Source of the DNA: Rhodopseudomonas sp. P2A-2r
GTDB lineage: Bacteria; Pseudomonadota; Alphaproteobacteria; Rhizobiales; Xanthobacteraceae
Length of the DNA: 64,000 bases
Reading direction: 5' to 3'
Assembly (NCBI RefSeq): GCF_026015985.1
Contig: NZ_CP110389.1
Location: 5,302,001-5,366,000 of the forward strand
Positions within the stretch are counted from its first letter, which is position 1. Every line of letters begins with the position of its first letter. Of the stretch, positions 1,988 through 18,839 are shown one piece after another. The position numbers and the translations under genes are program-made. The notes below the pieces were generated by a model that had not been told where the DNA came from, did no database searches, and saw only the letters and a program-made list of their open reading frames with translations.

Positions 1988-3652
1988 TCAGCTGCCGGCG
2001 GCCATCGGCAGCTTCTCGATATGCGGCACGGCGTCGACCAGTTCGCGGGTGTAGTCCGTCTGCGGATTGTCGAACAAAGCGTGGCTTTCGCCCTGCTCGA
2101 CGATCTCGCCGTTGCGCAGCACGATGGTGCGCTGGCACATCATCCTGACCACGTTGAGATCGTGGCTGACGAACAGAAACGACAGCCCGTCCTCGCGGCG
2201 CAGCCGCTCCAGCAGTTGCAGCACCACTGCCTGCACCGAGACATCCAGCGCGGCCGTCGGCTCGTCGAGCACCAGCAGGCTCGGCTCGCAGGCAATGGCG
2301 CGGGCGATGCCGATACGTGCCTTCTGGCCGCCCGACAATTGATGCGGAAAACGCTGCAGCAGCTCGGCCGGCAGGCCGACGCGTTCGGCGCATTCGCCCA
2401 CGCGCTTGCGCAGGGCATCGCCGTTGCGCATGCCGACCAGCCGCATCAAGGGATGGGCGATGCAGTCGAACGCCGTGAAGCGCGGATTGAGGCTGTCGTT
2501 GGGATCCTGGAACACGATCTGGATGGCACGGCGCTGCGGCGCCTTGTGAAAGTCCCGCGCCGGGATGTGGCTGATGGATTCGCCGTTGAAGTTGATCTGT
2601 CCCTCGCTCTGGTCGAGCAGCCGGCAGATCATCCGCGACGTCGTGCTCTTGCCGGAGCCGGACTCGCCGACCAGGCCGACGCTCTCGCCGGCCGCCATGG
2701 TCATGGAGAAGGTCTTGAGCGCCAGGGTGCCGTCGGGAAAGCGCTTCACCAGGTTCTGCACGTCAAGCAGCGGCGGTGTGCCGTGCGCCAGCGCCGGCCG
2801 GGGCGCGGCGGGAACGGTCGGCGGCAACGCGCGGTCTTCGCCGGTGACGAGGTCCTCGACCCGCGAGGTCGCCGTCGGCGACGCCGCCACAAGCCGCTTG
2901 GTGTAGGGATGCTGCGGCGACTGGAACAGGGTCAGCGCGTCGGCCTGCTCGACCAGCCTGCCCTGCTCCATGACCACCACGCGACGGCAGTAACGGGCGG
3001 CGAGGCCGAGATCGTGGGTGATCAGGATGGTCGCCATACCCCGTGCGGCGGCGATCGATGCCAGCAGATCCATCACCACCTTCTGGGTGGTGACATCGAG
3101 ACCGGTGGTCGGTTCGTCGGCGATCAGCAGAGACGGATTGCATGAGATCGCCATGGCGATCATCACCCGCTGGCACATGCCGCCGGACAGCTCATGCGGA
3201 TAGGCGCTCATGCGCTTCTCTGGATCGCGGATCTGCACGGCGCGCAGCAGCTCGAGCGACTCCGCGCGCGCGGCTTCGGCGGAGATCTTCTTGTGCGCGA
3301 GGATGGCATCGGCGATCTGCTGGCCGATGGCGCGGATCGGATTGAGCGCCCCGCGCGGGTTCTGGAAGATCATGGCCATGGCCGAGCCGTGCATCTCGCG
3401 CAGGCCGGCATTGGACATTTTCGTGATTTCGCGGTCGCGGAACAGGATGCGGCCGCCGGTGATCTTGCCGGAGGTGTCGAGCAGCCGGGTTACCGCGAAG
3501 CCGGTCACGGATTTGCCGGAGCCGCTCTCGCCGACGATGCCGAGGGTCTCGCCCGGCGCCAAAGCCAATGAGACGCCGCGCACCGCCTCGACCGGGCCGC
3601 GGCGGGTGGAGAAGGTGACGTGCAGGTTTTCGATGTCGAGAAGCTTGCTCAT
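1988..3652 (-). CDS. Dipeptide/oligopeptide-type ABC transporter, fused double ATPase (DppD-DppF)
   Basis: A 554-residue cytoplasmic protein with two complete ABC ATPase domains. The N-terminal half has Walker A GESGSGKS, signature LSGGMCQR and Walker B LLIADEPTTGLD. The C-terminal half has GESGSGKST, LSGGQKAR and LLVLDEPTAALD. This DppD-DppF or GsiA-like fusion powers import of peptides, opines, glutathione or related solutes through two permeases. It is the last gene of the leftward operon, 10 nt after the DppC-type permease. Both nucleotide-binding sites look intact. Substrate identity cannot be read from the ATPase; the neighbouring enzymes suggest a small organic amide or peptide-like compound. 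Confidence 0.93.
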   Translation of the reverse strand: MSKLLDIENLHVTFSTRRGPVEAVRGVSLALAPGETLGIVGESGSGKSVTGFAVTRLLDTSGKITGGRILFRDREITKMSNAGLREMHGSAMAMIFQNPRGALNPIRAIGQQIADAILAHKKISAEAARAESLELLRAVQIRDPEKRMSAYPHELSGGMCQRVMIAMAISCNPSLLIADEPTTGLDVTTQKVVMDLLASIAAARGMATILITHDLGLAARYCRRVVVMEQGRLVEQADALTLFQSPQHPYTKRLVAASPTATSRVEDLVTGEDRALPPTVPAAPRPALAHGTPPLLDVQNLVKRFPDGTLALKTFSMTMAAGESVGLVGESGSGKSTTSRMICRLLDQSEGQINFNGESISHIPARDFHKAPQRRAIQIVFQDPNDSLNPRFTAFDCIAHPLMRLVGMRNGDALRKRVGECAERVGLPAELLQRFPHQLSGGQKARIGIARAIACEPSLLVLDEPTAALDVSVQAVVLQLLERLRREDGLSFLFVSHDLNVVRMMCQRTIVLRNGEIVEQGESHALFDNPQTDYTRELVDAVPHIEKLPMAAGS

Positions 3653-3662
3653 GTGCGCTGCA

Positions 3663-4511
3663 TCAAGTCCGCTGTCTCGGATCGAGAATGTCGCGCAGCC
3701 CGTCGCCGAGCAGGTTGAAGCACAAGACTGCCATCATCAGCGCCAGGCCGGGAAACGCCACCAGCCACCATTTGCCGGTGGAGATGAAGCGCGCGCCTTC
3801 GGCGACCATGATGCCCCATTCCGGCGTCGGCGCCTTGACGCCGAGTCCGATGAACGAAAGTCCGGCGGCGTTGATGATCGCCCAGCCGAGATTGAGCGAC
3901 ATCTGCACCACCATGGCCGGCAGCACGTTGGGCAGCAGGAAGCGCAGCACCACGGAGAAATGGCTCTCGCCGCTGGCGCGCGCGGCCTCGACCCAGCCGA
4001 GGTTACGCCGCACGTTCACTTCGGCGCGGGCGAAGCGGATGTAGAATGGCAGGTTGATGATGGCGGTGGCGATGATGATGTTCTCGACCCGGTTGCCGAG
4101 CGCGGCGACCATGGCCATCGCCAGCACGAACAGCGGAAACGCCATCAGCACGTCGACGAAGCGGCCGACCGCGCGATCGAGCCGGCCGCCGCTATAGCCG
4201 CACAGCGCGCCGATCACCGCGCCGAGCGCGAAGGAGATGCCGACGGCGGAAATCGCGATGGCGAGATCGAGCTGGGTGGCGACGATGATGCGGCTGAACA
4301 CGTCGCGGCCGAGCTGGTCGGTGCCAGCCCAATGCGCCGCGCTCGGCCCCTGCAGGGCATTGGCCACGTCGGAGACGATCGGATCGTAGGGCGCGAGCCA
4401 CGGCGCGAAAATGCCGACGAGAATCAGCAGCGTCGAGCCGGCGGCAGCGATGCCGGTGATGGGATTGCCGCGCAGGATGAAGGCGGCGTGACTGAGGGTA
4501 GCGCTGCTCAT
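3663..4511 (-). CDS. Peptide/nickel-type ABC transporter permease (DppC-like)
   Basis: A 282-residue inner-membrane protein with about six hydrophobic segments. It has the binding-protein-dependent transport motif EAARASGESHFSVVLRFLLPN, which docks the ATPase, and the WAGTDQLGRDVFSRI element typical of DppC/OppC N-terminal regions. The open frame runs further upstream to 4727, but that part is antisense-like and lacks similarity. ATG 4511 overlaps the stop of the upstream permease gene as ATGA, showing translational coupling. It pairs with the DppB-like permease to form the channel. Confidence 0.92.
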   Translation of the reverse strand: MSSATLSHAAFILRGNPITGIAAAGSTLLILVGIFAPWLAPYDPIVSDVANALQGPSAAHWAGTDQLGRDVFSRIIVATQLDLAIAISAVGISFALGAVIGALCGYSGGRLDRAVGRFVDVLMAFPLFVLAMAMVAALGNRVENIIIATAIINLPFYIRFARAEVNVRRNLGWVEAARASGESHFSVVLRFLLPNVLPAMVVQMSLNLGWAIINAAGLSFIGLGVKAPTPEWGIMVAEGARFISTGKWWLVAFPGLALMMAVLCFNLLGDGLRDILDPRQRT

Positions 4512-5541
4512 CCGATGGAGATCCTGGGGTCGGCGATGCCGTAGAGGACATCGACGACCAGATTGACGATGACGAACACGAACGCCATCAAGAGGAAAAA
4601 CCCTGCACCGGCGCGTAGTCGGACGACAGCAACGCGTCGAGCGCGTAGGACGCGACGCCGGGCCACGAGAACACTTTTTCCACCAGCACGTTGGCACCGA
4701 GCATGGTGGAGAACACGATGCCGGCAATGGTGATCACCGGCAGGATGGCGTTGCGCAGCGCATAGGTGACGACGATCCGCCACCACGACAGGCCGACCGA
4801 GCGCGCGGTGCGCACGAAGTCGCTGCCCAATGAGGCCAGCATCGAGGCGCGGGTGATGCGCGCCAGCGGCGCGATCACGAACAGCGCCATGGTGCAGGCC
4901 GGCAGGATCAACTGCTTGAAGGCGGCCCACCAGCCCTCGAAATCCCCGGCGATCAGGAAGTCGATCAGCAGGAAGCCGGTATGCGACGGCGGCAGCGTCA
5001 TGAAGATATCGACGCGTCCGGTCGGATCCGGCGCAATGCCGAGCAGATAGTAGAACACATAGATCAGCAGCAGCCCGGAGACGAAAGTGGGCACGCAGAC
5101 GCCGAGCGCGCAGAACATGCGCACGCCGTGATCGATCAGCGACCCCGGCCTGAGCGCCGCCAGAATCCCGAGCGGCAGAGCGAGCACGAGCGCGATCAGC
5201 AGGGCCGAGAAGGTCAGTTCCAGCGACGCCGGAAGCCGCTCCTTGAGATCCTTGGTGACGGTCTGGCCGGTCATCAGCGAACGGCCGAGATTGCCGCGGC
5301 CGACGTCGTAGAGGTACAGCGCGAGTTGCTGCGGCACCGGCTTGTCGAGCCCCATCTGCTTGCGGATGGTCTCGATCTCTTCCTTGCCGGCATTGGGACC
5401 GGAGGCGAAGAACACGGCAGGATCGCCAGGCAACACCCGCATCAGCAGGAACGTAAAGATCAGCACGCCGAACAATGCGGGCAGTGACGAGGCAAAACGC
5501 CGTGCGGCGCGTTTCGCAGTGGATGCCAGCTTCATCAACAC
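4508..5541 (-). CDS. Peptide-type ABC transporter permease (DppB-like), frameshifted near its 3' end
   Basis: The first 313 or so residues read as a normal DppB permease: N-terminal TM, LPGDPAVFFASGP, the EAA-loop region (RTARSVGLSWWRIVVTYALRN) and repeated TM segments. The frame then hits a stop at 4588, just after VQGF. The missing tail (LLMAFVFVIVNLVVDVLYGIADPRISIG) is present one frame over and ends at 4508 in ATGA overlap with the next gene. Adding one base to the A5 run at 4596-4600 restores a 344-residue protein. Start is GTG 5541 (AAGG 10 nt upstream) or ATG 5535. A sequencing error or recent mutation is more likely than decay, because the rest of the operon is intact. Confidence 0.85.
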
Positions 5542-5626
5542 AAATGGTTCGCCTTAAACTGTCGTGAGAAAGATCACACGGCTCATGATCTTCATTACCT
5601 CTCCCCGCTTGCGGGGAGCTGCAATT

Positions 5627-5728
5627 GTAGGGTGGGCAAAGCTGCGACGCGGGAAGCGCGGCGAAGTGTGCCCACCACCGAGCATCAAAGTGGTGGGCAC
5701 GGCGCAAGTGCGCCTTTGCCCACCCTAC
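5627..5728. repeat. Nested palindromic intergenic element (REP/MITE-like)
   Basis: Outer arms gtagggtgggcaaag (5627-5641) and ctttgcccaccctac (5714-5728) are perfect 15-base inverted repeats. Inside them sit a second perfect pair, gtgcccaccac (5668-5678) and gtggtgggcac (5690-5700). A small separate hairpin, ctccccgcttgcggggag, lies just upstream at 5601-5618. The element fills the gap between the permease and solute-binding protein genes and could form a large cruciform or mRNA hairpin that tunes expression within the operon. Confidence 0.75.
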
Positions 5729-5757
5729 GCTCTAGTTTGTCGTGCAGTATCGGTCTA

Positions 5758-7374
5758 TCACTTCCTGCTGAGGTCGCGATAATCGACCTGGCGGTGGAAC
5801 TGATAGGTGTAGCCTTCGATCGACGGCGCCATCACCGCGTCCTGGCTCGGCTGCCACAACGGCACCTGGGGCATCTGGTCGAAATTGATGGCGTTCAGCT
5901 TGATGCCGTCGGCCTCATACTTCGCCTTGTCCGGCTCGAAACGAGCTTCCTGCGCGATGGCGGTGAGTTCGGCATTGTCGATCGAGCTGTAGTTCCAGCG
6001 CTGGTTACCGGTGTAGAAGTTGCGATAGAAGTAGTCGGTCGACGGCAGCCAGGCGACGATGCCTTCGGTGAAGAACGGCAGTTTCTTCTCGGTGATCTGC
6101 GTCGACATCTGCGCGTCGGGCAGCTTCTGGATATCCACCTTGATGCCGATCTTGGCGAGCGATTCCTTCACCAGTGCGGCCATCGGTTCCGCAGTCGCGG
6201 ACTGGCCGACGTTGAAGCTGAATGTGGTGGAGAAGCCATCAGGGAAGCCCGCCGCCTTCAGGTAGGCCTTGGCCTTGTCCAGATCGAGCTTGATCGGCTG
6301 CTTGATCGGGAAGCCGCCTGATGGCGGCTTGCCATCGGTCCAGGTGGCGCCGGTGAGCAAATCGCCGCGCCCGAACAAAGCCGCCTTGAACATATCGTCA
6401 TAGGGCAACGCATAGGCAACGGCCCGGCGCACATCGACCTTGTCGAAGGGCGGCATCTGGTTGTTCATCGAGATGAAGGTGATGGCATTGTACTGCGGGG
6501 TCGAGATCACCTTCAGCTTGCCCTTGGCCTCCAGCGATTGCGCATCGCTGGCCTGCAGGTCGATGACGATGTCGACATCGCCCTTCTCGACCAGGTTGGC
6601 GCGCGTCGAAGGCTCCGGCACCGACTGCAGGATCAGCCGCTTGAAGAACGCCTGCTTGCCGCCGGGACCGCGATTCCATGCGTCGTTGCGCTTCAGGATT
6701 ACCTGCTCGCCGGGCTTGAAACTGTCGATGACATAGGCGCCCGAACCCGCGGTATTTTCCTTCAGCCAGGCCTGCGCCCAGGGATCTTCCTCGGTCACAT
6801 GCGCCTTGGCGACTTTCGAATTGATGATGATCGGATAGACGGTGGCGAGGTTCGGCAGCGCCAGCTTGTCGGGCTTCGGCAGCGTCACTTCGAAGGTCAG
6901 GGGATCGATCACCTTGAACTGGCTGGCGTCGGTCAGCGAGCCCGTCAACAACTGTGCCTTGCCGAGAATCTTGGCGGTGACGGCACGATCGAGCGACCAC
7001 TTCACGTCATCGGCGGTGACCGGCGAGCCGTCCTGGAACTTGGCGTCCTTGCGCAGCTTGAAGGTGATCTTCAGTCCGTCGGGGCTGACATCGAAGGACT
7101 CGGCGAGTTCGCCGCGGATGGTATCGAGGTCGAACACCCATTTGCCGTTGAGCTGTTTGCGTCCGAACGAGACCAGCCGGTCATAGGTCGAGAGACTGAC
7201 GGCAAAGGCTTCGCGGGTCGAGCCGGGAATGTTCGGGTCGAGCGTATTGACCGAAGCGCCCGTGACATAGCGCAGCGTCTCGGCCCGGGTCTGCGCCTTG
7301 ACCGGCGCCGCGGCGACCAGAAAGGCCAGCACGGCGACCGCGCCCAGCATCTGCTTCGAATAAGAAAGTCTCAT
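5758..7374 (-). CDS. Peptide-type ABC transporter substrate-binding protein (SBP_bac_5 family)
   Basis: A 538-residue periplasmic binding protein. An Arg/Lys-led hydrophobic signal peptide ends near AAPVKA-Q (residues 1-27). The mature part has SBP_bac_5 features: the early LRYVTGASVNTLDPNIPGS segment, FKLRKDAKFQDGSPVTADDVKWSLDR, and the C-terminal NAINFDQMPQVPLWQPSQD. Length is usual for DppA/OppA-class proteins. It heads the transporter part of the leftward operon (binding protein, two permeases, fused ATPase) and follows the FMO-like gene after about 136 nt. The ligand is unknown. Confidence 0.93.
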   Translation of the reverse strand: MRLSYSKQMLGAVAVLAFLVAAAPVKAQTRAETLRYVTGASVNTLDPNIPGSTREAFAVSLSTYDRLVSFGRKQLNGKWVFDLDTIRGELAESFDVSPDGLKITFKLRKDAKFQDGSPVTADDVKWSLDRAVTAKILGKAQLLTGSLTDASQFKVIDPLTFEVTLPKPDKLALPNLATVYPIIINSKVAKAHVTEEDPWAQAWLKENTAGSGAYVIDSFKPGEQVILKRNDAWNRGPGGKQAFFKRLILQSVPEPSTRANLVEKGDVDIVIDLQASDAQSLEAKGKLKVISTPQYNAITFISMNNQMPPFDKVDVRRAVAYALPYDDMFKAALFGRGDLLTGATWTDGKPPSGGFPIKQPIKLDLDKAKAYLKAAGFPDGFSTTFSFNVGQSATAEPMAALVKESLAKIGIKVDIQKLPDAQMSTQITEKKLPFFTEGIVAWLPSTDYFYRNFYTGNQRWNYSSIDNAELTAIAQEARFEPDKAKYEADGIKLNAINFDQMPQVPLWQPSQDAVMAPSIEGYTYQFHRQVDYRDLSRK

Positions 7375-7510
7375 CGTCCTGTTCCCCTGAAATCAACAAC
7401 CCTTCGATGCCCAGCACCGTGAACTATTCGATATCTAAAGCAATTAATGCGCCAAGCGGTCCGGCCGGCCTCCGCGACGGGCTGCGTCAGCCTGCACGAT
7501 CGCACCGGGA

Positions 7511-8947
7511 TCATCCAGCATCGTCTGCGGTCTCCGGTTCCCTGCGGATGATGGCCTGCCGGACGTCGTAAGCCTGCAGGGAGGCCCAGTGTCCCTCAAT
7601 ATCGGCGCGAAACAAGCCACGAGTCAGTCCATGCACAAGCTTCGGCACTGCCGTTGTCATCGCGTTGATGGATGAACCGGATGCGCCGAAACTCATGGTT
7701 GAGGCGATGGCGAAGAGATGGATATCGGAGATCCATGGCGTCGCTCCGGCCACGCGCTCGGTCAGGGCATAATCCTCGGCAAGATAGGGAAAGCGCCCGA
7801 GCCGCGGGCTGCGCTCGCTTTGCGGCGGCTGGTAGCGGTCGGCCCAGGTGGCGATATTGGCCGCGCAGTTCTGCAATTCGGGCCGGCTGGTAAAATCCAT
7901 GGCGATGCCGGTGCCGCAGATCACGAAATCGGCGACCACCGGTCCGCCTGGCGTCTGCAATTCGACCTTGTTGCCCGCCTGTTGGGCAGCCTCGACCGGC
8001 GCGCCCTCATGCAGGACGAAATTCGCGTGGCGCGCGCAGCGGTCCCAGGTCGGTTGCGGAAACCCCTCGCGCATGTCCAGGATGGTGCGCATGAAGCGCC
8101 AGCGCCAGGCGTCGTCGAGCTCGCTGAAATGCCGCAGGAAGCCTCGAAAGGTCAGCCAGTGATAAGGCTGGATCAATTGCACCTCGGCGCGGCGGCACAG
8201 CAGGTGCACCTCGGCGGCGCCTGCTTCCAGCGCCGTGGCGGCGTTGTCGAAGGCCGACGCGCCGGCGCCGATCACCACGACCTGCTTGCCGCGCAGCGCT
8301 GCGAAATCGATGTCCGCCGACGCGTTGACGCACAGCGAGGGCGGCAGATGCGCCAGCGGCTCCGGAATCATCCAGTTGCCCATGCCCTCCTGCCCGGTCG
8401 CCAGCACGATTTTTCGCGCATAAAGCGTCTCCATGCCGCCGGCGGTCTGCACCGAAGCCGCGAGCAAACCATTCGCGGCCGGCTTGATGTCCAGCACCTC
8501 GCAGCCGTTGCGCACGGGCACGCCGACCACACGCCGGAACCAGATCAGATAGTCCACCCAGTGCTGCCGCAGGATGCGATCGAGCTGCTGCCAGTGCTCC
8601 CGGCCGAACATCGCCTCGTGCCAGGACTGGTAGGTCAGGCTCGGCATATCGAGGTCCGGACCGGTGAAATGCTTCGGGCTGCGCAAGGTCGGCATGCGCG
8701 CGTAAGTGAGCCACGGACCTTCGAGACCTTCAGCGGCCTTGTCCAGAACGAGGATATTGCCGACCTGCGAACGCAGCAGGCCGAAGCCGATGGCGAGACC
8801 GGACTGGCCGGCGCCGACGATCAGCACGTCCAGCGCCGGCTTGCCATCCGGACCGGGCCTTGCCTTGAGCCACGGCACATTGGGATGCGCGGTCTTGTGG
8901 AGATCGTCGCGAACCTGTGCTTCCAAAGCCGAGAGAGCGTCGTTCAT
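7511..8947 (-). CDS. FMO-like NAD(P)/FAD-dependent monooxygenase
   Basis: A 478-residue flavoprotein. The FAD-binding Rossmann motif is VLIVGAGQSGLAIGFGLL (about residues 39-57). An FMO-like region follows (FTGPDLDMPSLTYQSWHEAMFG), then a second Rossmann motif for NADPH (VVVIGAGASAFDNAATALEAG) and a late GTGIAMDF stretch. This resembles flavin-containing or Baeyer-Villiger-type monooxygenases and YdhS-like oxidoreductases, which insert oxygen at N, S or carbonyl carbons. The frame is open to 9391, but ATG 8947 overlaps the SDR stop as ATGA, so it is the coupled start. It acts in the cytosol; the substrate is inferred to be an intermediate of the island's pathway. Confidence 0.86.
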   Translation of the reverse strand: MNDALSALEAQVRDDLHKTAHPNVPWLKARPGPDGKPALDVLIVGAGQSGLAIGFGLLRSQVGNILVLDKAAEGLEGPWLTYARMPTLRSPKHFTGPDLDMPSLTYQSWHEAMFGREHWQQLDRILRQHWVDYLIWFRRVVGVPVRNGCEVLDIKPAANGLLAASVQTAGGMETLYARKIVLATGQEGMGNWMIPEPLAHLPPSLCVNASADIDFAALRGKQVVVIGAGASAFDNAATALEAGAAEVHLLCRRAEVQLIQPYHWLTFRGFLRHFSELDDAWRWRFMRTILDMREGFPQPTWDRCARHANFVLHEGAPVEAAQQAGNKVELQTPGGPVVADFVICGTGIAMDFTSRPELQNCAANIATWADRYQPPQSERSPRLGRFPYLAEDYALTERVAGATPWISDIHLFAIASTMSFGASGSSINAMTTAVPKLVHGLTRGLFRADIEGHWASLQAYDVRQAIIRREPETADDAG

Positions 8948-9705
8948 GCCGCGAGCCATCCGCCATCGACCGGCAGCACGGTCCCCGTGGTGAAGGACGA
9001 CGCGTCGCTGGCGAGATACAGCGCCGCTTCGGCGACCTCCACGGCCTCGCCGAACCGCTTCATGGCATGGCGGTTGCGCGACGCTTCGCGGACCGGATCG
9101 GGATCGGCATGCCGCGCAAAACTGCGGCGCAGCAGCGGCGTGTCGATGGCCCCCGGTGCGATGGCATTGACGCGAATGCCGTCGGTGGCAAAGTCCACCG
9201 CCATGGTGCGGGTCAGGCTGAGGATCGCGCCCTTGGACGCAATATAGGCGCTGTTGCCCTTGCCGCCGGCTATGGCCAGCTGCGAGGCAACGGTGACGAT
9301 CGAGCCCTTGCGCTGTCGCTGCATCTGAGGCACCGCCGCGCGCGCCCACAGCCAGGTGCCGCCCACATTGGTGCGGAACACCGCATCCCAATCCTCCGGC
9401 GCGGTGGTCACCACCGTGCCGCCGACGGAGAAGCCGGCGGAGGTCATGAGGATGTCGAGCCGGCCGCGCTGGCCCACGATATGCTCAACCGTTCCGGACG
9501 CGTATTCGCCGTCGCCGACATCGCCGACGTGGATCGAGGCATCGCCCTTCGCGTCCTGGATCTCCGCAAGAGTTTCCTGCAGGCCGGCCTCGTCGCGATC
9601 GACCAATGCGACGAATACGCCCTCGCGCGCAAACAGCAGCGCGCTGGCGCGGCCGATGCCGGAGCCTGCGCCGGTGATGATCGCCGTGCGTCCATGAAGT
9701 CTCAT
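8944..9705 (-). CDS. SDR-family NAD(P)-dependent oxidoreductase
   Basis: A 253-residue classical short-chain dehydrogenase. The cofactor motif is TGAGSGIG (residues 11-18). D37 after beta-2 (ALVDRDEA) favours NAD(H). The catalytic set is S141, Y154 and K158 (YIASK), and the C-terminus is the usual VLPVDGG. The canonical NNAG motif is replaced by TSAG (88-91), an unusual but tolerated variant. The start at 9705 is one base after the stop of the epimerase gene, with AGGAAGG inside that gene's end as RBS. The stop overlaps the FMO start. Such tight packing implies one transcript and a shared pathway. Confidence 0.92.
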   Translation of the reverse strand: MRLHGRTAIITGAGSGIGRASALLFAREGVFVALVDRDEAGLQETLAEIQDAKGDASIHVGDVGDGEYASGTVEHIVGQRGRLDILMTSAGFSVGGTVVTTAPEDWDAVFRTNVGGTWLWARAAVPQMQRQRKGSIVTVASQLAIAGGKGNSAYIASKGAILSLTRTMAVDFATDGIRVNAIAPGAIDTPLLRRSFARHADPDPVREASRNRHAMKRFGEAVEVAEAALYLASDASSFTTGTVLPVDGGWLAA

Positions 9706-9706
9706 C

Positions 9707-10681
9707 TCAGTTTCCTTCCTGATGCTGCGACCAGTCCTGAAGGTCAGCCGCGGAATCGGCGCAGCCAAAGCGCGCCCGCCAGCCAAACTCCTCCGCGAGG
9801 CGCGTCACAGCCAGCGGCGCGCGGTCGGCGGCGCTGTGCAGATTGACGTTCGGGGCTTCGCCCGGCGCGGCGAGCCGGCAGACGAAGCCCGGATTGAGCG
9901 CCGCCAGTGCTTCACCCCATTGCAGCGCCGACCATTCGACGCCGGTGGAGATATTGTACAGGCGATGTTGCGGCCTGGCAGCCTCGAGCAGCAGGGCGAT
10001 GGCGTCGGCCACGTCCGGCGCGTAGATCGAGTCCTTGACGCCGGCGCGCGGCAGCACGGCTTCGCGTCCCGCATGCAGCGCGTCGATGATCTGCATCTGC
10101 GGGCTCAGCGTGTCGCGCACGCCGGTCGCCCGCTCCCACGGTCCGAACACGCCGCTGAGCCGCACGCTGACGATGTCCATGGACCACAGCGCGGCGAGGC
10201 GCGCGGCGACCTTCTCGGAAGCGAATTTGGTGATGGCGTAAAGCGACTGGGGATCGCAGGTCAGTTCCTCGTCGAGCAGCGCGTGCCGAAAGGCGGCGGC
10301 GCCATAGGCGCCCGCGGAGGACAGGTTGATCACGCGTCGAACGCCGTGACGCTTGGCCGCAACAAGGATCGGCGTCTGCGCCATCAGGTTGACCTGCAGA
10401 ATGCTCTCGGGATCGGCGGCGTCGCGTTCCGCATCGGCGGTGATCGCGGCGCCAAGCACGATCGCATCGATGCCGCCGGCGATGGCCGCATCGACCGCGG
10501 CGCGATCGAGGATGTCGCCCAATACCATCGTCAGCCTGTCGCCATGACGGCGGAAGGCCCGCTGCGCCGCCGGCGGCAAGCCTGCGCGGTCGAACAATGT
10601 CACCGCATGGCCCCGCGACAGCAGGACATCGGCGATATTGAGCCCCACAAAACCGGTGCCGCCAAAGATCAGGACGTTCAT
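9707..10681 (-). CDS. NAD-dependent epimerase/dehydratase family protein
   Basis: A 324-residue extended SDR. The N-terminal GGTGFVG motif (7-13) binds NAD(P). S121/S122 and the Y148-x3-K152 pair (YAITK) form the catalytic set, as in nucleotide-sugar epimerases and uronate dehydrogenases. The frame continues upstream to 10771, but ATG 10681 begins the canonical MNVLIFGGTGF. It is the first gene of the leftward operon downstream of the GntR regulator. In a catabolic island it is more likely a hydroxy-acid or sugar-acid dehydrogenase than a cell-wall sugar enzyme; this is inference from context. Confidence 0.87.
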   Translation of the reverse strand: MNVLIFGGTGFVGLNIADVLLSRGHAVTLFDRAGLPPAAQRAFRRHGDRLTMVLGDILDRAAVDAAIAGGIDAIVLGAAITADAERDAADPESILQVNLMAQTPILVAAKRHGVRRVINLSSAGAYGAAAFRHALLDEELTCDPQSLYAITKFASEKVAARLAALWSMDIVSVRLSGVFGPWERATGVRDTLSPQMQIIDALHAGREAVLPRAGVKDSIYAPDVADAIALLLEAARPQHRLYNISTGVEWSALQWGEALAALNPGFVCRLAAPGEAPNVNLHSAADRAPLAVTRLAEEFGWRARFGCADSAADLQDWSQHQEGN

Positions 10682-10818
10682 TGCTCGATCCAGGAACCGC
10701 ACTGCCGGTTCAACCGGCACTCTTTGGACCATCGGCCCGGTCTTCTCCAAGCAAGTTTTTGGAGCGCGCAACGCTCATTCAACAGGCAGCATGACGCAAG
10801 GCAAGATGGCGTCCGCGA

Positions 10819-11467
10819 CTAGCCACCCGCCTCGGCTGCGGTTTTCAACGCCGCGAGAACCGCGTCGCCGGTCTTGCGGGTATGCGCGCTGAGCGACGCC
10901 GCAAAGCCCTGCGCATCGCGCGCGCAGCAGCGCCATGAAATCCTCGTGCTCCTTGACGGACTCGGTCCACCGTTTCGCATCGTAATTCGCCGTCGCGCGC
11001 GCACGATAGATATTGGCGTTCAAGGTGGTCCAGATGTTGAGCAGCACCGGGTTGCCGGCGAGCCGCGTGATTTCGATGTGAATATCCTGGTTCATGCGAA
11101 AATAGGCTGCGCGTGCCGCATCACGGTGCAGCGCCACCAACTGCTCATGCATCGCATCGAGCCGGGCGATATCGGCGTCGGTCGCAAGCATTGCGGCCTG
11201 GGCGCCGGCCACGCCATCGAGCGCCACCATGACGGCAAAGCTGTCAGCGATCTCATCGCGGTTGACCGGCGTCACCACCGGCGTCCGGTGCGAGCGCAAT
11301 TCGATCAGTCCTTCGGCGGCCAGGATCTTGAATGCCTCGCGCAGCGGCGTGCGCGACACGCCGAAGGTCTCGCACAGCATCTTTTCCGGCAACGGCGCGC
11401 CGGCCGCGAGTTCGCCGTCGACGATCATCTCCCGCACCTTGGCGACCAGCTGGTCGTGCAGCGACAT
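10819..11467 (-). CDS. GntR-family (FCD domain) transcriptional regulator, frameshifted near its C-terminus
   Basis: The N-terminal winged helix spans about residues 1-70 (VREMIVDGELAAGAPLPEKMLCETFGVSRTPLREAFKIL), followed by an all-helical FCD ligand domain with metal-type residues (MNQDIHIEI, EHEDFMALL). After LLRAR the frame runs into unrelated sequence ending at 10775. The expected last helix (RDAQGFAASLSAHTRKTGDAVLAALKTAAEAGG) is intact in another frame, ending at 10819. The break falls in a (CG)n run at 10917-10925, consistent with loss of one CG unit. It likely binds the palindromes in the divergent region at 11625-11689 and responds to a pathway metabolite. Confidence 0.87.
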
Positions 11468-11624
11468 GCGCTCCAGCGGCCGCTTCGAATGGTCGGACGA
11501 CAGTTTCAGCCGGGTGGGCTTGAAGCGCGTCCGCAGCCGCGCGCGGGGGCCAGCTCAGTCATGAGCCACATCGCTGGACGGTTCGAAATGCCTCAAAATC
11601 GTGTTCTCCGCCTAAAGATGCAGC

Positions 11625-11689
11625 AATTATTGATGACTACTATTAGCATCTAATAATTGATATTTCAAGATAATATGCAAATTGCATAT
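11625..11689. promoter_or_regulatory. Divergent control region with two operator-like palindromes
   Basis: This AT-rich stretch lies between the GntR gene (left) and the binding-protein gene (right). It holds tattag-cat-ctaata (11641-11655), a perfect palindrome with a 3-base centre. It also holds atatgcaa-a-ttgcatat (11673-11689), a perfect palindrome with one central base. An aattatt/aataatt inverted pair (11625-11631 with the bases after 11650) surrounds the first. FadR/FCD regulators commonly bind short palindromes of this size, so these are the best operator candidates. Confidence 0.6.
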
Positions 11690-11767
11690 CGTATTCGAAG
11701 TGGCATGAGGCTTGCTGATGGATGCAGGTCAAAGCGAACCCATCGCCCACGCCCGGAGATTGCGACC

Positions 11768-12775
11768 ATGAAACGATTATTGCTCGGCATTTGTCTCGCC
11801 CTTGGATTGACCTCGGCCATGTCATCCGGCGCCCTCGCCCAATCAGAGCCCGTCATCAAGCTCGGTTACGCCAAGTGCGCCCATTGCACGCCGATGTCGC
11901 TGACCCCGCAATACGCCAAGGGCGTGCAGATCGATGCCGTCGGCTTCAACACCGGCACCGACGCACTCACCGCGCTGATCTCGAAAAATCTCGATGTCGC
12001 GCAGGTCACCTATCTTCATTACGCCATCGCGCTCGACAAGGGTTTCGACGTGGTCGCGATTTCCGGCCAGGTCAACGGCGGCTCCGCCATGCTGGTCGGC
12101 AACGACCTGCCGGTTACGCCCAACGACTGGGCCTCGCTGAAGAAGGTCATCGCCGACTACAAGGCAGCCGGCAAGCCGTTCCGCGTGGCTGCGTCGCGCG
12201 GCAATGCGCAGGACATCCACATGCGCGGCGCCTTCGCCAAGCAGGGTATCGACATCAACAAGGATGTGCAGTTCGTCAATATTCCCAACCCGTCGGACCA
12301 TCTGCAGGCGCTGCGCCGCGGCGAGATCGAACTGATCTGCACCGTCGAGCCGTTCGCCACGCAGATTCTGCAGCAGAAGGCGGCCAAGATGTTCGGCCTG
12401 CCCTACGACCAGGCCGCCGGCAAGCTGACGAACCTGATCCTGACCCGCTCCGACGTGGTCAAGGACAAGCCCAAGGAACTCGAAGCGACCGTCAAGGCGA
12501 TCGTCAAGGTCGATGAATTCGTCGCCGCCGACAAGGGCGCGCTGATCGACGTCATCTCCAAGGTCACCGGCCTCGACAAGGCCATCGCGACAGGCGCCGT
12601 CGACAATCTCGATCCCGATCCGAAGATGTACCGCGCCTCGGCGCTGGCCATCGCCAACATGATGCGGGACCTGAAGTACATCAACTCCGACGTCTCCGCC
12701 GCGGTCGAGAAGAACATGAACTACACATTCCTCGAAGCCGCCACCGGCAAGCCCAAGACCGAACTCGGCTATTGA
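11768..12775 (+). CDS. NMT1/SsuA-type ABC transporter substrate-binding protein
   Basis: A 335-residue periplasmic protein with a signal peptide (MKRLLLGICLALGLTSAMSSGALA, cleavage before QSEP). The mature start, VIKLGYAKCAHCTPM, is typical of nitrate/sulfonate/taurine/thiamine-precursor-type (NMT1-like) binding proteins. Lobe features include TALISKNLDVAQVTYLHYAIALDKG and the SRGNAQDIHMRGAFAKQGID hinge region. The C-x-x-C (CAHC) near the mature N-terminus is unusual and may shape the ligand site. The frame reaches back to 11657, but ATG 11768 begins the signal peptide. It is the first gene of the rightward operon. Confidence 0.9.
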   Translation: MKRLLLGICLALGLTSAMSSGALAQSEPVIKLGYAKCAHCTPMSLTPQYAKGVQIDAVGFNTGTDALTALISKNLDVAQVTYLHYAIALDKGFDVVAISGQVNGGSAMLVGNDLPVTPNDWASLKKVIADYKAAGKPFRVAASRGNAQDIHMRGAFAKQGIDINKDVQFVNIPNPSDHLQALRRGEIELICTVEPFATQILQQKAAKMFGLPYDQAAGKLTNLILTRSDVVKDKPKELEATVKAIVKVDEFVAADKGALIDVISKVTGLDKAIATGAVDNLDPDPKMYRASALAIANMMRDLKYINSDVSAAVEKNMNYTFLEAATGKPKTELGY

Positions 12776-12783
12776 GATCGATC

Positions 12784-13590
12784 ATGGCCAGCCTCCGGCA
12801 CTTCAGAAAACTCGACCGCTATATCGTGCCGGTGCTGATCCTGGCCGGCTGGGAAGCGTTCTCGCGCTCGGGCGCGCTTCCCGCCGCCTTGCTCCCCGCC
12901 CCGTCCACCGTGGTGTGGGCATGGGCGGACTGGCTGTTCGGCACCGACGGCAACACCCAGACCTATAGCGGGCACTGGCTGTCCGACATGGCCGCCAGCC
13001 TGTCCCGCGTGCTGGCGGGATTTGCCATCGCCACGGTACTGGCGGTGTCCACCGGCGTCGCCATCGGCTGGTCGCGCAAGATCGAGGTGATCATCGAGCC
13101 GACGCTGCAGATGCTGCGGCCGATCCCGCCGGTGTCGTGGATTCCGCTGGCAATCATCTGGTTCGGCATCGCCAACAAGCCGGCGATCTTCCTGGTGTTT
13201 CTCGGGGCGTTCTTCCCGATCCTGCTCAACACCATCCACGGCGTGAAGACCTGCGACCGCAACCTGATCCGCGCCGGCGCCATGGTCGGCGGCGGCAACC
13301 GCGAGCTGCTGCGCTTCATCGTGCTGCCGGCGGCGCTGCCCAGCATCTTCGCCGGCCTGCGCATCGGCATCGGCTCCGCCTGGATGCTGACCGTGACCGC
13401 CGAGATGGTCGCCGTCAAAAGCGGCCTCGGCTATGTGCTCTGGGATTCCTATTACTTCCTGCGGTACGACCTCGTGCTGGCGGCGATGGCCAGCATCGGC
13501 CTGCTCGGCTTTCTCAGCGACCTCGGCATCCGCGCGGTGATGAGCCAGGTGCTGCACTGGCAGCGCAACACCACGATCGCGGGAGAATAG
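12784..13590 (+). CDS. SsuC/TauC-type ABC transporter permease
   Basis: A 268-residue inner-membrane permease with about six hydrophobic segments and the BPD_transp_1 EAA-loop (GGGNRELLRFIVLPAALPSIFAGLRIGIG). The segment LRPIPPVSWIPLAIIWFGI is strongly characteristic of the nitrate/sulfonate/taurine permease family. It starts 8 nt after the binding-protein gene. A TTG in frame at 12772 would overlap that stop, but ATG 12784 is the natural choice. It forms a homodimeric channel with the ATPase encoded next. Confidence 0.92.
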   Translation: MASLRHFRKLDRYIVPVLILAGWEAFSRSGALPAALLPAPSTVVWAWADWLFGTDGNTQTYSGHWLSDMAASLSRVLAGFAIATVLAVSTGVAIGWSRKIEVIIEPTLQMLRPIPPVSWIPLAIIWFGIANKPAIFLVFLGAFFPILLNTIHGVKTCDRNLIRAGAMVGGGNRELLRFIVLPAALPSIFAGLRIGIGSAWMLTVTAEMVAVKSGLGYVLWDSYYFLRYDLVLAAMASIGLLGFLSDLGIRAVMSQVLHWQRNTTIAGE

Positions 13591-13593
13591 GCG

Positions 13594-14382
13594 ATGGCAA
13601 CGATCGATATTTCCCACGTCTCCAAGGTCTTCAAGGACGCCAAGCGCAAGGCCGACGTCATCGCGCTCGACGACATCAACCTGGAGGTTTCCAAGAACCA
13701 GTTCCTGTGCCTGCTCGGCCCCAGCGGCTGCGGCAAATCAACCCTGCTGAACATGATCGCCGGCTTCGAGAAGCCGTCGTCCGGCACCGTCACCGTCGAC
13801 GGCCAGCTGATCACATCGCCAGGCTCCGATCGCGGTGTCGTGTTCCAGCAGGCCAATCTGATGCCGTGGCTGCCGGTTTGGGAAAACGTAGGCTTCCATC
13901 TCAAGCTGCGGGGCGGCCAGAAGGAAGAACGCCGCACCGTCGCCCAGCGCTACATCGACATGGTCGGCCTCACCGGCTTTGAAAACCATTATCCATCCGA
14001 GCTGTCCGGCGGCATGAACCAGCGCGTCGGCATCGCCCGCGCGCTCTTGATGAATCCGCAGGTCATCCTGATGGACGAGCCGTTCGGCGCGCTCGACGAG
14101 CAGACCCGGATGGAGATGCAGAACGAGCTGGTGCGGATCTGGCAGCAGCATCAGGGGACCATCGTCTTCGTCACCCACGGCATCGACGAGGCGCTGACCC
14201 TCGGCACCCATGTCGCAGTCATGAGCGCCCGGCCCGGCCGCATCAAGGAGATCATCCCGATCGACCTCGAGCGACCGCGCGATATCACCAGCCCGCAGTT
14301 CAACGAGATCAAGCGGCACATCCTCGACCTGCTCCGCTCGGAGCGGGCAACACCCACCCTCGAAACTCTGGATCACCCATGA
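13594..14382 (+). CDS. SsuB/TauB-type ABC transporter ATPase
   Basis: A 262-residue single-domain ATPase: Walker A GPSGCGKST (about residue 48), Q-loop VVFQQANLMPW, signature LSGGMNQRVGIARAL, Walker B VILMDEPFGALDE and switch His in VTHGIDEA. It has the length and C-terminal RPGRIKEIIPIDL element of the nitrate/sulfonate/taurine subfamily. It begins 3 nt after the permease stop and its own stop overlaps the next gene's ATG (ATGA), so transporter and decarboxylase-like enzyme are translationally linked. Confidence 0.95.
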   Translation: MATIDISHVSKVFKDAKRKADVIALDDINLEVSKNQFLCLLGPSGCGKSTLLNMIAGFEKPSSGTVTVDGQLITSPGSDRGVVFQQANLMPWLPVWENVGFHLKLRGGQKEERRTVAQRYIDMVGLTGFENHYPSELSGGMNQRVGIARALLMNPQVILMDEPFGALDEQTRMEMQNELVRIWQQHQGTIVFVTHGIDEALTLGTHVAVMSARPGRIKEIIPIDLERPRDITSPQFNEIKRHILDLLRSERATPTLETLDHP

Positions 14383-15104
14383 CCAAACGCGTTCTGCTCG
14401 GCCAGCTCACCCCATCGTCCAACACGGCGCTGGAGCCGATCACCACCGCCATGCTGGCGGGGCTTCCGGAAGTCTCCGCACACTTCTCCCGCTTCAAGGT
14501 CACCGAGATAGCCCTGTCCAACACCGCGCTGGCGCAGTTCGACAATTCGGAGATCCTGCGGGCCGCCGAACTGCTGGCCCACGCCAAGGTCGACGTGATC
14601 GGCTGGAACGGCACGTCGTCGGGCTGGCTTGGCTTCGAAGCCGACGTCCGCCTGTGCGAGCAGATCACGGCCGCCACCGGCATTCCCGCCACCACCTCGA
14701 TGCTGGCGCTGAACGAGATCCTTGCCACTACGGGCGTGAAGAAGCTCGGCTATGTGACGCCCTATCTCGATGCGGTTCAGGCAAAGATCCTGGACAATTA
14801 CGGCAAGCTCGGCATCGCTTGCGGCGGTGAGCGCCATCTCAACCTGCAGGACAACTTTTCGTTCTCGGAAGTGCCGGTGCCGCAACTGGAGCAGATGACC
14901 CGCGACGTCGCCGCTGACAAGCCCGACGCCATTGCCATCATCTGCACCAATCTGCGGGTGGCGCCGTCGACCGCGAAACTGGAGCAGGAAACCGGCATCC
15001 CGGTCTACGACACCATCGCCACCGTGGTATGGAAGTGCCTGAAGATGGCCGGCGTCGACACCAAGCGAGTGACCGGCTGGGGCTCGCTGTTCCAGAACGT
15101 CTGA
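14379..15104 (+). CDS. Asp/Glu racemase-superfamily enzyme, arylmalonate-decarboxylase-like
   Basis: A 241-residue protein of the maleate isomerase / arylmalonate decarboxylase (AMDase) branch. The N-terminal PSSNTALEP (12-20) is typical. At the first catalytic position, where racemases and maleate isomerases carry Cys, it has NGTSS (77-81). The second Cys is kept as C189 in ICTNLR. Y129 sits in TPY. Gly-Thr-Ser plus Tyr plus a single C-terminal Cys is the published AMDase arrangement (G74-T75-S76, Y126, C188). This predicts decarboxylation of a malonate-like acid rather than racemisation. The substrate is unknown; hydantoin racemase is less likely because one Cys is missing. Confidence 0.82.
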   Translation: MTKRVLLGQLTPSSNTALEPITTAMLAGLPEVSAHFSRFKVTEIALSNTALAQFDNSEILRAAELLAHAKVDVIGWNGTSSGWLGFEADVRLCEQITAATGIPATTSMLALNEILATTGVKKLGYVTPYLDAVQAKILDNYGKLGIACGGERHLNLQDNFSFSEVPVPQLEQMTRDVAADKPDAIAIICTNLRVAPSTAKLEQETGIPVYDTIATVVWKCLKMAGVDTKRVTGWGSLFQNV

Positions 15105-15140
15105 CCGGTTCGCAACACACACTCAACGGGAGGTCTCGCC

Positions 15141-16556
15141 ATGGCCACTTTCGACACCGTCATTCGCAACGGCACCGTGGTGACCGCCAGCGAGACCTTC
15201 AAGGCCGACGTGGGCATCAGGGACGGCCGCATCGTCGCGCTCGGCGAGGCGCTGACCGACGCCAGTGAAATCGTCGATGCCACCCGACTGCTGGTGCTGC
15301 CGGGCGGCATCGACAGCCACGTCCACATCTCGCAGCCGTCCGGTCCGGGCATCGTGATGGCCGACGATTTTACCAGCGCGACGCGGGCAGCGGCGTTCGG
15401 CGGCAACACCTTCGTGATGCCCTACTGCCTGCAGGCCAAGGGGCAGCCGCTGCGCGAGGCGCTGAAGGACTATCATGCGCTGGCGGAGCGGCATTGCTAC
15501 ATCGACCACTCCTTCCATCTGATCATCTCCGATCCCACCGACGCCGTGCTCGGCCAGGAACTGCCGGCGCTCGTTGCCGACGGCTACACCTCGCTGAAGA
15601 TCTTCATGACCTATGCGGACATGGTGCTGAGCGACTACGAGATCCTGCAGGTGCTGACGGTGGCCCGTGAGACCGGCGCGCTGGTGCAGGTTCATGCCGA
15701 GAACTATGACGCCATTCGTTTTCTTGCCGACCGCCTCGAACGTGCCGGCAATACCGGGCCGTATTACCACGCCAAGTCGCGTCCCATCGCCGTGGAGCGC
15801 GAGGCTACCCATCGCGCCATCTCGCTGGCCGAGCTGATCGACGTGCCACTGGTCATCGTCCATGTCTCCAACCGAGAGGCGATGGAAGAGATCCGCCGCG
15901 CCCAGCAGCGCGGGCTGAAGATTTCCGGCGAGACCTGCCCGCAATATCTGGTGCTCACCGAGGAGGACCTGAAGGATCTCGGCATGGAGGGCGCGAAATA
16001 CGTCTGCTCGCCGCCGCCGCGTGACGTGGCCAGCCAGCAGGCGTGCTGGGAAGGCCTGCAGCAGGGCGTGTTCACGCTGTTCTCGTCGGACCACTGCCCG
16101 TTCCGCTTCGACGACGAAGCCGGCAAGCTGACGCCGGGCGGACGCACCAGCTTCCGCTGGATTCCCAACGGCATTCCCGGCGTCGAGACCCGGCTGCCGA
16201 TCCTGTTTTCCGAAGGCGTCAGCAAGGGACGCATCACCGTCAACCAGTTCGTGGCACTGACCTCGACCAACCACGCCAAGACCTACGGACTGACAGGAAA
16301 GGGCTCGATCAGCGTCGGCTACGACGCCGACATCGCGCTGTGGGACCCCAAGAAGACGGCGACCCTGTCGCAGGCCGGCCTGCATCACGGCGCCGACTAC
16401 ACGCCCTATGAAGGCATCGAGATCACCGGCTGGCCGGTGGCGACCATGCTGCGTGGACGCTTTGTCGTGCGCGATGGCGCGCTGGTCGGCCCCGAGGGCG
16501 GAGGACGCTACGTCAGCCGGAGCGCGCCGGCTGCCGGGGACCGCGGCCCGGCATAG
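15141..16556 (+). CDS. Dihydropyrimidinase/hydantoinase-family cyclic amidohydrolase
   Basis: A 471-residue amidohydrolase with the full binuclear metal set: H60 and H62 (DSHVH), carbamylated lysine K153 (SLKIFMTY), H185 (QVHAEN), H241 (VHVSN) and D317 (SSDHCPF). Length and the GETCPQYL motif fit the D-hydantoinase/dihydropyrimidinase family, which opens cyclic ureides and imides. The RBS is gggagg 7 nt before ATG 15141. It ends the rightward operon, right after the AMDase-like gene. The chemistry of the pair suggests ring opening of a cyclic ureide/imide together with loss of a malonyl-type carboxyl; this is inference. Confidence 0.92.
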   Translation: MATFDTVIRNGTVVTASETFKADVGIRDGRIVALGEALTDASEIVDATRLLVLPGGIDSHVHISQPSGPGIVMADDFTSATRAAAFGGNTFVMPYCLQAKGQPLREALKDYHALAERHCYIDHSFHLIISDPTDAVLGQELPALVADGYTSLKIFMTYADMVLSDYEILQVLTVARETGALVQVHAENYDAIRFLADRLERAGNTGPYYHAKSRPIAVEREATHRAISLAELIDVPLVIVHVSNREAMEEIRRAQQRGLKISGETCPQYLVLTEEDLKDLGMEGAKYVCSPPPRDVASQQACWEGLQQGVFTLFSSDHCPFRFDDEAGKLTPGGRTSFRWIPNGIPGVETRLPILFSEGVSKGRITVNQFVALTSTNHAKTYGLTGKGSISVGYDADIALWDPKKTATLSQAGLHHGADYTPYEGIEITGWPVATMLRGRFVVRDGALVGPEGGGRYVSRSAPAAGDRGPA

Positions 16557-18583: not shown

Positions 18584-18839
18584 CGAGGTACCTTCCTGGA
18601 CCTTCCGGTCCACCTTTGCGGGGCTCTCAATCGCGCAATTGGAGCGCAAATCTAGACGCCGAGTTCTAATCTCTCCTTAAGGCCGACGCGCAAAATCGCC
18701 GCCTTCGCGCGGGGATGGAGGCTCGCCTGGTCAGGTCATGGATTTCCGCGTGTAACGCGCGCGGCATCGAGGGCGTCGGAAATCAACCTCTCGGACCCGC
18801 CCGGTGCTACCGTCGTCGCCGAACTGCAGAACCCGCGTG

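Follow-up and report, generated by a model that had tools for sequence, protein, structure and literature searches.

A two-importer island of Rhodopseudomonas sp. P2A-2r with a probable role in scavenging nitrogen from cyclic ureides

Here we analyse a divergent catabolic island in a stretch of 64,000 nucleotides (hereafter the window; positions 5,302,001 to 5,366,000 of NZ_CP110389.1) from the 6.74-Mb, single-contig genome of Rhodopseudomonas sp. P2A-2r. The closest named relatives of the window belong to Tardiphaga, and the host is a soil bacterium of that type. The island comprises a left module (an epimerase-family protein, a short-chain dehydrogenase/reductase (SDR), a flavoprotein resembling flavin-containing monooxygenases (FMO-like) and a peptide-type ATP-binding cassette (ABC) importer) and a right module (a GntR/FCD regulator, an NMT1-type ABC importer, a protein resembling arylmalonate decarboxylases (AMDases) and a hydantoinase), with coordinates given in Table 1. 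On balance, we think it probable that the island serves to scavenge nitrogen from a cyclic ureide, either a 5-substituted hydantoin or a dihydropyrimidine, and we regard it as a variant of the known hydantoin-utilization (hyu) systems with one enzyme that lacks a known reaction. The genes, the synteny of the modules, the conserved promoter-like sites, the catalytic residues of the hydantoinase and the active-site pattern of the AMDase-like protein were observed directly; the class of substrate, the order of reactions, the activity of the promoters, the identity of the activator and the part played by the regulator are inferred from them. All genes named in the preliminary description, which was made from the letters alone, are present and fall into the expected families, and the view that they form a cyclic-ureide catabolic island is well supported by synteny. 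The grouping goes beyond chance: the whole island recurs in four further genomes of the genus, and each module is also found elsewhere.

The right module was followed through its AMDase-like protein. A species-genome scan gave 115 relatives, the best 80 of which were kept as loci (L numbers; G numbers denote genomes) and read by tblastn with the window proteins and comparator proteins. A hydantoinase of at least 45% identity lies within the examined stretch in 61 of these 80 loci, and another cyclic-amide hydrolase or an amidase in seven (L008, L014, L016, L019, L046, L056 and L080). AMDase-like and hydantoinase genes recur together in alpha-, beta- and gammaproteobacteria and in a cyanobacterium (L005, L051, L085 and L075). 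The transport genes vary (an NMT1-type substrate-binding protein at 22 loci, otherwise a major facilitator superfamily transporter at 40, and neither at 18), and a GntR match occurs somewhere in the stretch in 55. In L046 and L056 the AMDase-like gene adjoins matches to PuuE and ureidoglycolate lyase, and in L083 it adjoins genes for a nucleobase symporter, an amidohydrolase and UbiD/UbiX. The protein is accessory, since only 48 of 397 genomes drawn from the order carry it (E <= 1e-60), and it is encoded by a single copy in the host genome. That a relative of the AMDase fold recurs with hydantoinase narrows the search for a natural substrate to cyclic ureides and supplies defined compounds for assay.

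The left module was followed through its FMO-like protein; among the 296 genomes of the family that were scanned, 62 encode a match at the same threshold (E <= 1e-60). We took the best 30 matches (64-100% identity), 12 of them in the window's genus, the host included, and 18 in others; wider stretches were obtained around 28, the host's own locus being the window and G198 being available only as a 3-kb contig piece. Of the 18 loci outside the genus (L128-L140 and L152-L156), 16 encode both a hydantoinase and an Asp/Glu/hydantoin-type racemase next to the left module. In 14 of these an N-carbamoyl-D-amino-acid hydrolase (carbamoylase) completes the hyu set, whereas at L139 and L140 the first two are found; L132 has racemase and carbamoylase. 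Neither the NMT1-type binding-protein gene nor the AMDase-like gene occurs in any of these 18 stretches. Within the genus, the full island is present in five of the ten informative genomes (the host, G026, G066, G088 and G237; G198 and G222 are uninformative owing to contig ends), and in G180 the left module lies with the hyu trio. Four stretches around weaker FMO-like matches (41-44% identity) were also read: three are without the left module, and in L144 a peptide-type ABC system of 26-44% identity lies beside the flavoprotein. In G169 (L125:4344-15724), the left module is situated just downstream of a gyrB-like gene and near dnaA-, dnaN- and recF-like open reading frames (ORFs), as judged from their N-termini.

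This arrangement recalls the hyuC-racemase-hyuH clusters of Bradyrhizobium BTAi1 and ORS278, of which USDA 110 has a variant (PMC3546935, excerpt). The same order, with hyuC and a divergent racemase followed by hyuH, is seen beside the relatives of the left module, and the hydantoinase family is shared; in the window, by contrast, the trio is not adjacent and the GntR-NMT1 ABC-AMDase-like-hydantoinase module stands in its place. The hyu section of that excerpt does not mention flavoprotein, SDR or epimerase genes. The suggestion that the pathway is undescribed therefore holds only in part, because the left module goes with hyu genes that have been reported in clusters. In the system proposed here, the two importers would take up related compounds, or stages of one compound, and the flavoprotein, the epimerase-family protein and the SDR would modify the side chain, either ahead of ring opening or following it.

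At the loci examined, the two modules stand side by side in the window's genus alone, and it must be asked whether they are two unrelated catabolic modules that are merely neighbours there. The left module would then serve uptake of hydantoins or D-amino acids together with a distant hyu trio, and the right module would handle another compound with its own hydantoinase. Such a separation is favoured by their union in only half of the genus's informative genomes, by the lack of any such union at the 18 left-module loci from other genera, and by five Bradyrhizobium loci with the right module and without the left (L005, L006, L007, L011 and L013). We nevertheless hold it to be rather unlikely. 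In G140 (L126), the left module is accompanied by the hydantoinase as the only gene of the right module (86% identity). In addition, three distant lineages have an epimerase and SDR pair next to an AMDase-like gene, a hydantoinase gene or both: Azorhizobium (L008, which has no hydantoinase of the island type), Klebsiella (L085) and plasmid pMNOD02 of Methylobacterium nodulans (L165). The epimerases of L008 and L085 are distant from that of the window (39% and 34% identity), and the closest match of the L165 epimerase is the Klebsiella one (44%). A similar pair lies beside a PuuE-type allantoinase and a ureidoglycolate lyase in L121 and L122 (39-41% identity to the window epimerase). Because of these neighbours, together with those of the AMDase-like gene (PuuE, ureidoglycolate lyase and the symporter), the evidence points to cyclic ureides or related N-heterocycles. 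Synteny had been named in advance as one means of refuting a joint system, and the outcome is divided: the modules are separable, yet the epimerase-SDR links and L126 tie them together.

The Klebsiella locus is on a plasmid of Klebsiella michiganensis, in which an NMT1 ABC-epimerase-SDR-AMDase-like-hydantoinase-FAH cluster is bordered at one end by insertion sequence elements, an arrangement that would fit horizontal transfer.

D-hydantoinases bind their metals through an HxH motif, a carboxylated lysine, two histidines and an aspartate. The last gene of the right arm supplies the hydantoinase expected of a hyu cluster: its product passes the cut-offs of two family models (Table 1) and, by motif, has H60xH62, K153, H185, H241 and D317 at the metal site. 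It would open the ring to give an N-carbamoyl acid, from which an N-carbamoyl hydrolase encoded outside the island would release ammonia, CO2 and an amino acid. The host genome offers two candidates, carbamoylases 57% and 54% identical to an N-carbamoyl-D-amino-acid hydrolase of P. yeei. One, of the hyuC type, belongs to a trio at ~934-938 kb (L161:4766-7733) whose other members are an Asp/Glu/hydantoin racemase and a further hydantoinase, split across two frames; the gene order is that found beside the left module in other genera. Around the other (L162:7600-14110, ~2.286-2.292 Mb) lie matches to an amino-acid ABC importer and to a polysaccharide-deacetylase-family protein, PuuE-like in its context, along with a weak match to an amidohydrolase.

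The models that the hydantoinase passes carry the name dihydropyrimidinase, and a D-hydantoinase of B. diazoefficiens has been discussed in connection with dihydrouracil in nodules (PMC4926349, excerpt), which would fit a right module belonging to the reductive pyrimidine (dihydrouracil/dihydrothymine) pathway. This is quite improbable, however, given that no dihydropyrimidine dehydrogenase or ureidopropionase family was found among the island genes scanned. Moreover, we know of no role for the AMDase-like enzyme in that pathway.

The AMDase-like protein is the member of the island with the least familiar chemistry. Its AlphaFold2 model (mean predicted local distance difference test score 91.1) retrieves maleate isomerases as the top Foldseek matches (template modelling (TM) score 0.86-0.89; 4fq5_A 0.88), followed by AMDases (0.75-0.84, query-normalised; 3dg9 0.83). 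By the residue criteria for AMDases (Table 4 of PMC4996985, excerpt), Gly78-Thr79-Ser80, Tyr129 and Cys189 align with AMDase G74-T75-S76, Y126 and C188. In a 97-row alignment that contains some duplicate loci, Gly78 and Thr79 are found in 97/97 rows and Ser80 in 96/97, and Cys189, Asn15 and Asn159 are invariant in sets of 39 and of 34 sequences. Two positions differ: Asn159 replaces V156 of the hydrophobic pocket and Thr190 replaces G189 of the dioxyanion hole, both being invariant among the 39 sequences. Of AMDase P14 and P15, aligned by eye, the first is kept as P12 and the second deviates as S13; F162 occupies the place of M159, and L40, V43 and Y48 lie beyond the tool-aligned region. The protein scores 63.5 bits with the NCBIfam model arylmal_decarb (cut-off 225) and 68.7 bits with EutA (TIGR02990; cut-off 318). 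We therefore did not accept AMDase membership, at least two of the published residues being replaced and the score lying below the family cut-off.

With the AMDases (Maimanakos 2016, PMC4996985, excerpt), the protein nonetheless shares PF17645, the fold, the G-T-S/Tyr/Cys188 pattern and transporter neighbours; for AMDases the excerpt names tripartite tricarboxylate, tripartite ATP-independent periplasmic and ABC transporters along with mandelate-racemase-type genes, whereas the island enzyme has a hydantoinase neighbour. It is unlikely that the protein works as a genuine decarboxylase of the malonate type, with a gem-dicarboxylate from an opened, carboxylated cyclic ureide as its substrate: the conserved match to the AMDase residues and the AMDase folds retrieved favour this, but the two invariant replacements do not, and in the alignment maleate isomerase likewise has asparagines at Asn15 and Asn159. 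The earlier idea of a malonate-like substrate is weakened by the same differences (V156 and G189 in the tool alignment, P15 by eye) and by the low score.

Maleate cis-trans isomerase (4fq5/4fq7, 2xec) is the nearest fold and has the PSSN motif, Asn159 and the second cysteine in common with the protein. A racemase or cis-trans isomerase would also agree with the database names ("maleate isomerase", "aspartate/glutamate racemase family") and with the near-invariance of Cys93, a further cysteine (window 14655-14657) outside the known catalytic positions. The first catalytic cysteine of maleate isomerase, however, aligns with Gly78, a glycine in every row of the alignment, and the two-cysteine arrangement of racemases and isomerases is thus lacking. 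For this reason we rejected the name maleate isomerase, and we find an activity of this general kind doubtful, although a shade less so than the malonate-type one.

We expect from the sequence that the enzyme uses cofactor-free acid-base chemistry at Cys189, and on the proposed pathway it would carry out one cofactor-free proton-transfer or decarboxylation step on a pathway acid. A tentative and by itself unlikely suggestion is that it has an undescribed activity, with a single cysteine of the catalytic pair and a polar pocket, on a ring-opened carboxylated cyclic ureide; cofactor-free decarboxylation of ureidomalonate or ureidomethylmalonate would be an example. If true, this would supply AMDase-type enzymes with a natural pathway; their natural substrate and pathway have been stated to be unknown (PMC4424294; likewise PMC4996985, excerpt). 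In a search that covered few subscription journals, no paper was found that couples arylmalonate decarboxylase with hydantoinase, or maleate isomerase with a dihydropyrimidinase gene cluster.

Both importer operons are marked by sigma-54-type promoters, and the island is probably sigma-54-dependent, as judged from conserved sequence elements. A site with GG and GC at fixed spacing precedes each of the two binding-protein genes (Table 1). An exact match to TGGCAYGNNNNTTGCW, as found on the right, is expected 0.03 times (shuffles), and the T-ending form occurs 11 times genome-wide versus once for the reversed control. On the left, TGGCAYRNNNNTTGCW with one mismatch has five sites in the window versus 1.88 expected, which is weak evidence by itself. 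The weight of the evidence lies instead in conserved position. We scored 170 bp upstream of each gene after removing duplicates and partial and low-identity matches, with the window included. Sites with at least 11 of 12 positions precede the SBP_bac_5 gene in 29/29 loci (7 exact) and the NMT1 binding-protein gene in 21/25 (17 exact). At the same threshold, the other island genes, lettered A-M in left-to-right order, gave none or few (A 0/28, B 0/29, C 0/29, E 0/30, F 0/29, G 0/28, H 0/19, J 0/26, ATPase K 1/30, AMDase-like L 3/93 and M 0/87), or 0 to 3%. A site of this type also precedes the racemase gene in 7 of the 11 loci L127-L137 (two exact, five with one mismatch). The same promoter class before both binding-protein genes is a further point against unrelated modules. 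It had been assumed that the left arm is a single operon; this is not clear, and because the left site, conserved in relatives, lies in a 136-bp gap between the FMO-like gene and the SBP_bac_5 gene, the arm is likely to form two transcription units. The overlapping ATGA junctions described as several are confined to two, FMO-like/SDR and ATPase/AMDase-like.

Transcription of the importer operons would require sigma-54 polymerase together with an activator whose gene lies outside the window; NtrC, acting when nitrogen is limiting, is the most likely one. No sigma-54 activator gene was found in the window; of the ten PF00158 matches in the rest of the genome, six are whole, two are the parts of a single gene broken into two frames, and the remaining two are weak. 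A hydantoinase operon of Paraburkholderia phymatum is preceded by an RpoN box, and a hydantoin-utilization gene of B. diazoefficiens is termed a direct RpoN target (both PMC5979394, excerpt); hydantoin racemase is listed in a survey of sigma-54-regulated genes (PMC12316311, excerpt). This literature agrees with the promoter class seen here. The clusters of orthologous groups that the excerpted survey lists together with hydantoin racemase are presumably peptide-ABC families. The P. phymatum operon (Bphy_6150-52; PMC5979394, excerpt) has a hydantoinase gene with a predicted RpoN box in common with the right module; in three stretches of the unannotated pBPHY01 record covering 631-778 kb, no hydantoinase or AMDase-like gene was found, Bphy_6150-52 was not located in them, and we do not claim that the two are the same. 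From the shared sites one can predict under which conditions the importers would be produced, which opens the nitrogen-scavenging role to direct testing.

The preliminary description had placed the island under one GntR/FCD regulator with palindromic operators. The regulator is present, but this account is incomplete in view of the sigma-54-type promoters. A perfect 8+1+8 palindrome (ATATGCAA-A-TTGCATAT) does exist in the window, but a palindrome scan of the intergenic region found no element in register across relatives. What aligns instead is the block ATTGCATATCGTAT, which directly precedes the right promoter and can be recognised in all of the 15 aligned rows except L082. The block is kept as ATCGCATACCGAAT in L008, L014 and L017, all of which are without the sigma-54-type site. 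This retention points to the FCD regulator as the protein to which the block belongs; by acting at ATTGCATATCGTAT, next to the promoter on the right, the regulator would add control by the substrate.

A number of observations weigh against the nitrogen-scavenging reading. Family scans found no N-carbamoyl amino acid hydrolase among the 13 island genes, and neither binding protein attains the cut-off of any substrate-specific NCBIfam model (SBP_bac_5 is under that of all 10 models listed). The left module has no hydantoinase, racemase or carbamoylase beside it in L138, and no recognised hyu gene in the examined flank in three genomes of the genus, G107, G124 and G169 (loci L125/L157, L147 and L149, of which L125 is from G169). 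Twelve of the 80 AMDase-like loci are without a recognised cyclic-amide hydrolase; in five of these the stretch ends less than 5 kb from the gene in one direction or both (L003, L009, L010, L012 and L027), and the other seven have no such nearby end (L015, L030, L031, L053, L055, L069 and L078). In L053, L055 and L078 (~9900-10720), the AMDase-like gene is an apparent orphan beside a mutL-like ORF (N-termini read), and the enzyme may therefore have a role outside ureide clusters. As to the promoters, the sigma-54 consensus was fixed after the first sites had been seen, and the loci are related, which makes the tallies conservation counts and not independent trials. Four of the 25 right modules (L008, L014, L017 and L044) are without the site, and the regions upstream of ATPase K reach 10/12 in 9/30. 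No site of at least 11/12 was found at the hyu trio (L161) or the second carbamoylase cluster (L162) of the host genome. Finally, a search of three regions for NtrC-type sites with up to four mismatches gave one match each, all with four mismatches, and none is convincing.

Two island genes are frame-broken. In the DppB-like gene, the frame changes at ~4597-4603, near the C-terminus; six relatives match in two frames, the tail being 81-97% identical, and all six are intact (6/6). In the GntR gene, the change is at ~10910-10923 and affects the last ~33 residues; the off-frame tail is 64-94% identical to relatives, and all five compared are intact (5/5). Similarity of this gene to its relatives also reaches ~11548, upstream of the first in-frame ATG. 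We did not accept the breaks as a sign of decay of the island, since the off-frame tails are still 64-97% identical. Because the tails are conserved and because, of the few genes inspected in other parts of the genome, two are also split, we favour assembly indels, as far as sequence comparison can tell; one of these two split genes is the sigma-54 activator gene at G000:C1:1272510-1273009. If real, the breaks would cost the regulator its C-terminal part and the left importer the end of one permease.

Table 1. Positions in the window of the island, its genes and the candidate control elements.
Feature	Position	Strand	Family evidence or remark
Rhodopseudomonas sp. P2A-2r island	1988-16556		13 genes: 5 enzymes, 2 ABC importers, 1 GntR/FCD regulator
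Fused two-domain ABC ATPase, YejF/DppD-DppF-like, left importer	1988..3652	-	Pfam ABC_tran x2, oligo_HPY; top NCBIfam match YejF, under its cut-off
Permease, DppC/OppC type	3663..4511	-	BPD_transp_1 + OppC_N (scanned as 3663-4520)
Permease, DppB/OppB type, frame-broken	4511..5541 (in-frame ORF 4588-5541)	-	BPD_transp_1
Peptide-type substrate-binding protein SBP_bac_5	5758..7374	-	PF00496 299 bits
Sigma-54-type -24/-12 site TGGCGCATTAATTGCT before SBP_bac_5	7439..7454	-	1 mismatch to TGGCAYRNNNNTTGCW
FMO-like FAD/NAD(P)-binding flavoprotein	7511..8947	-	Pyr_redox_3, Lys_Orn_oxgnase
SDR oxidoreductase, PRK06138 family	8944..9705	-	378 bits (cut-off 312)
NAD-dependent epimerase/dehydratase family protein	9707..10681	-	PF01370 136 bits
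GntR/FCD regulator, frame-broken	10775..11467	-	GntR + FCD domains
Conserved block ATTGCATATCGTAT, candidate FCD operator	11681..11694	.	15-row intergenic alignment
Sigma-54-type -24/-12 site TGGCATGAGGCTTGCT before NMT1 substrate-binding protein	11701..11716	+	exact match to TGGCAYGNNNNTTGCW
NMT1-type substrate-binding protein (NMT1_2)	11768..12775	+	PF13379 91 bits
ABC permease, TauC/SsuC-like	12784..13590	+	PF00528; NCBIfam matches under cut-offs
ABC ATPase, right importer	13594..14382	+	PF00005
AMDase-like protein, Asp/Glu racemase superfamily	14379..15104	+	PF17645 77 bits
D-hydantoinase/dihydropyrimidinase	15141..16556	+	PRK13404 742 bits (cut-off 647), TIGR02033 527 bits (cut-off 393)

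A motif check of the FMO-like product did not find the FxGxxxHxxx motif. Outside the island, the flanking genes of the window encode a response-regulator/HWE kinase protein (327-1547) and an acyltransferase-3 protein (17384-18649).

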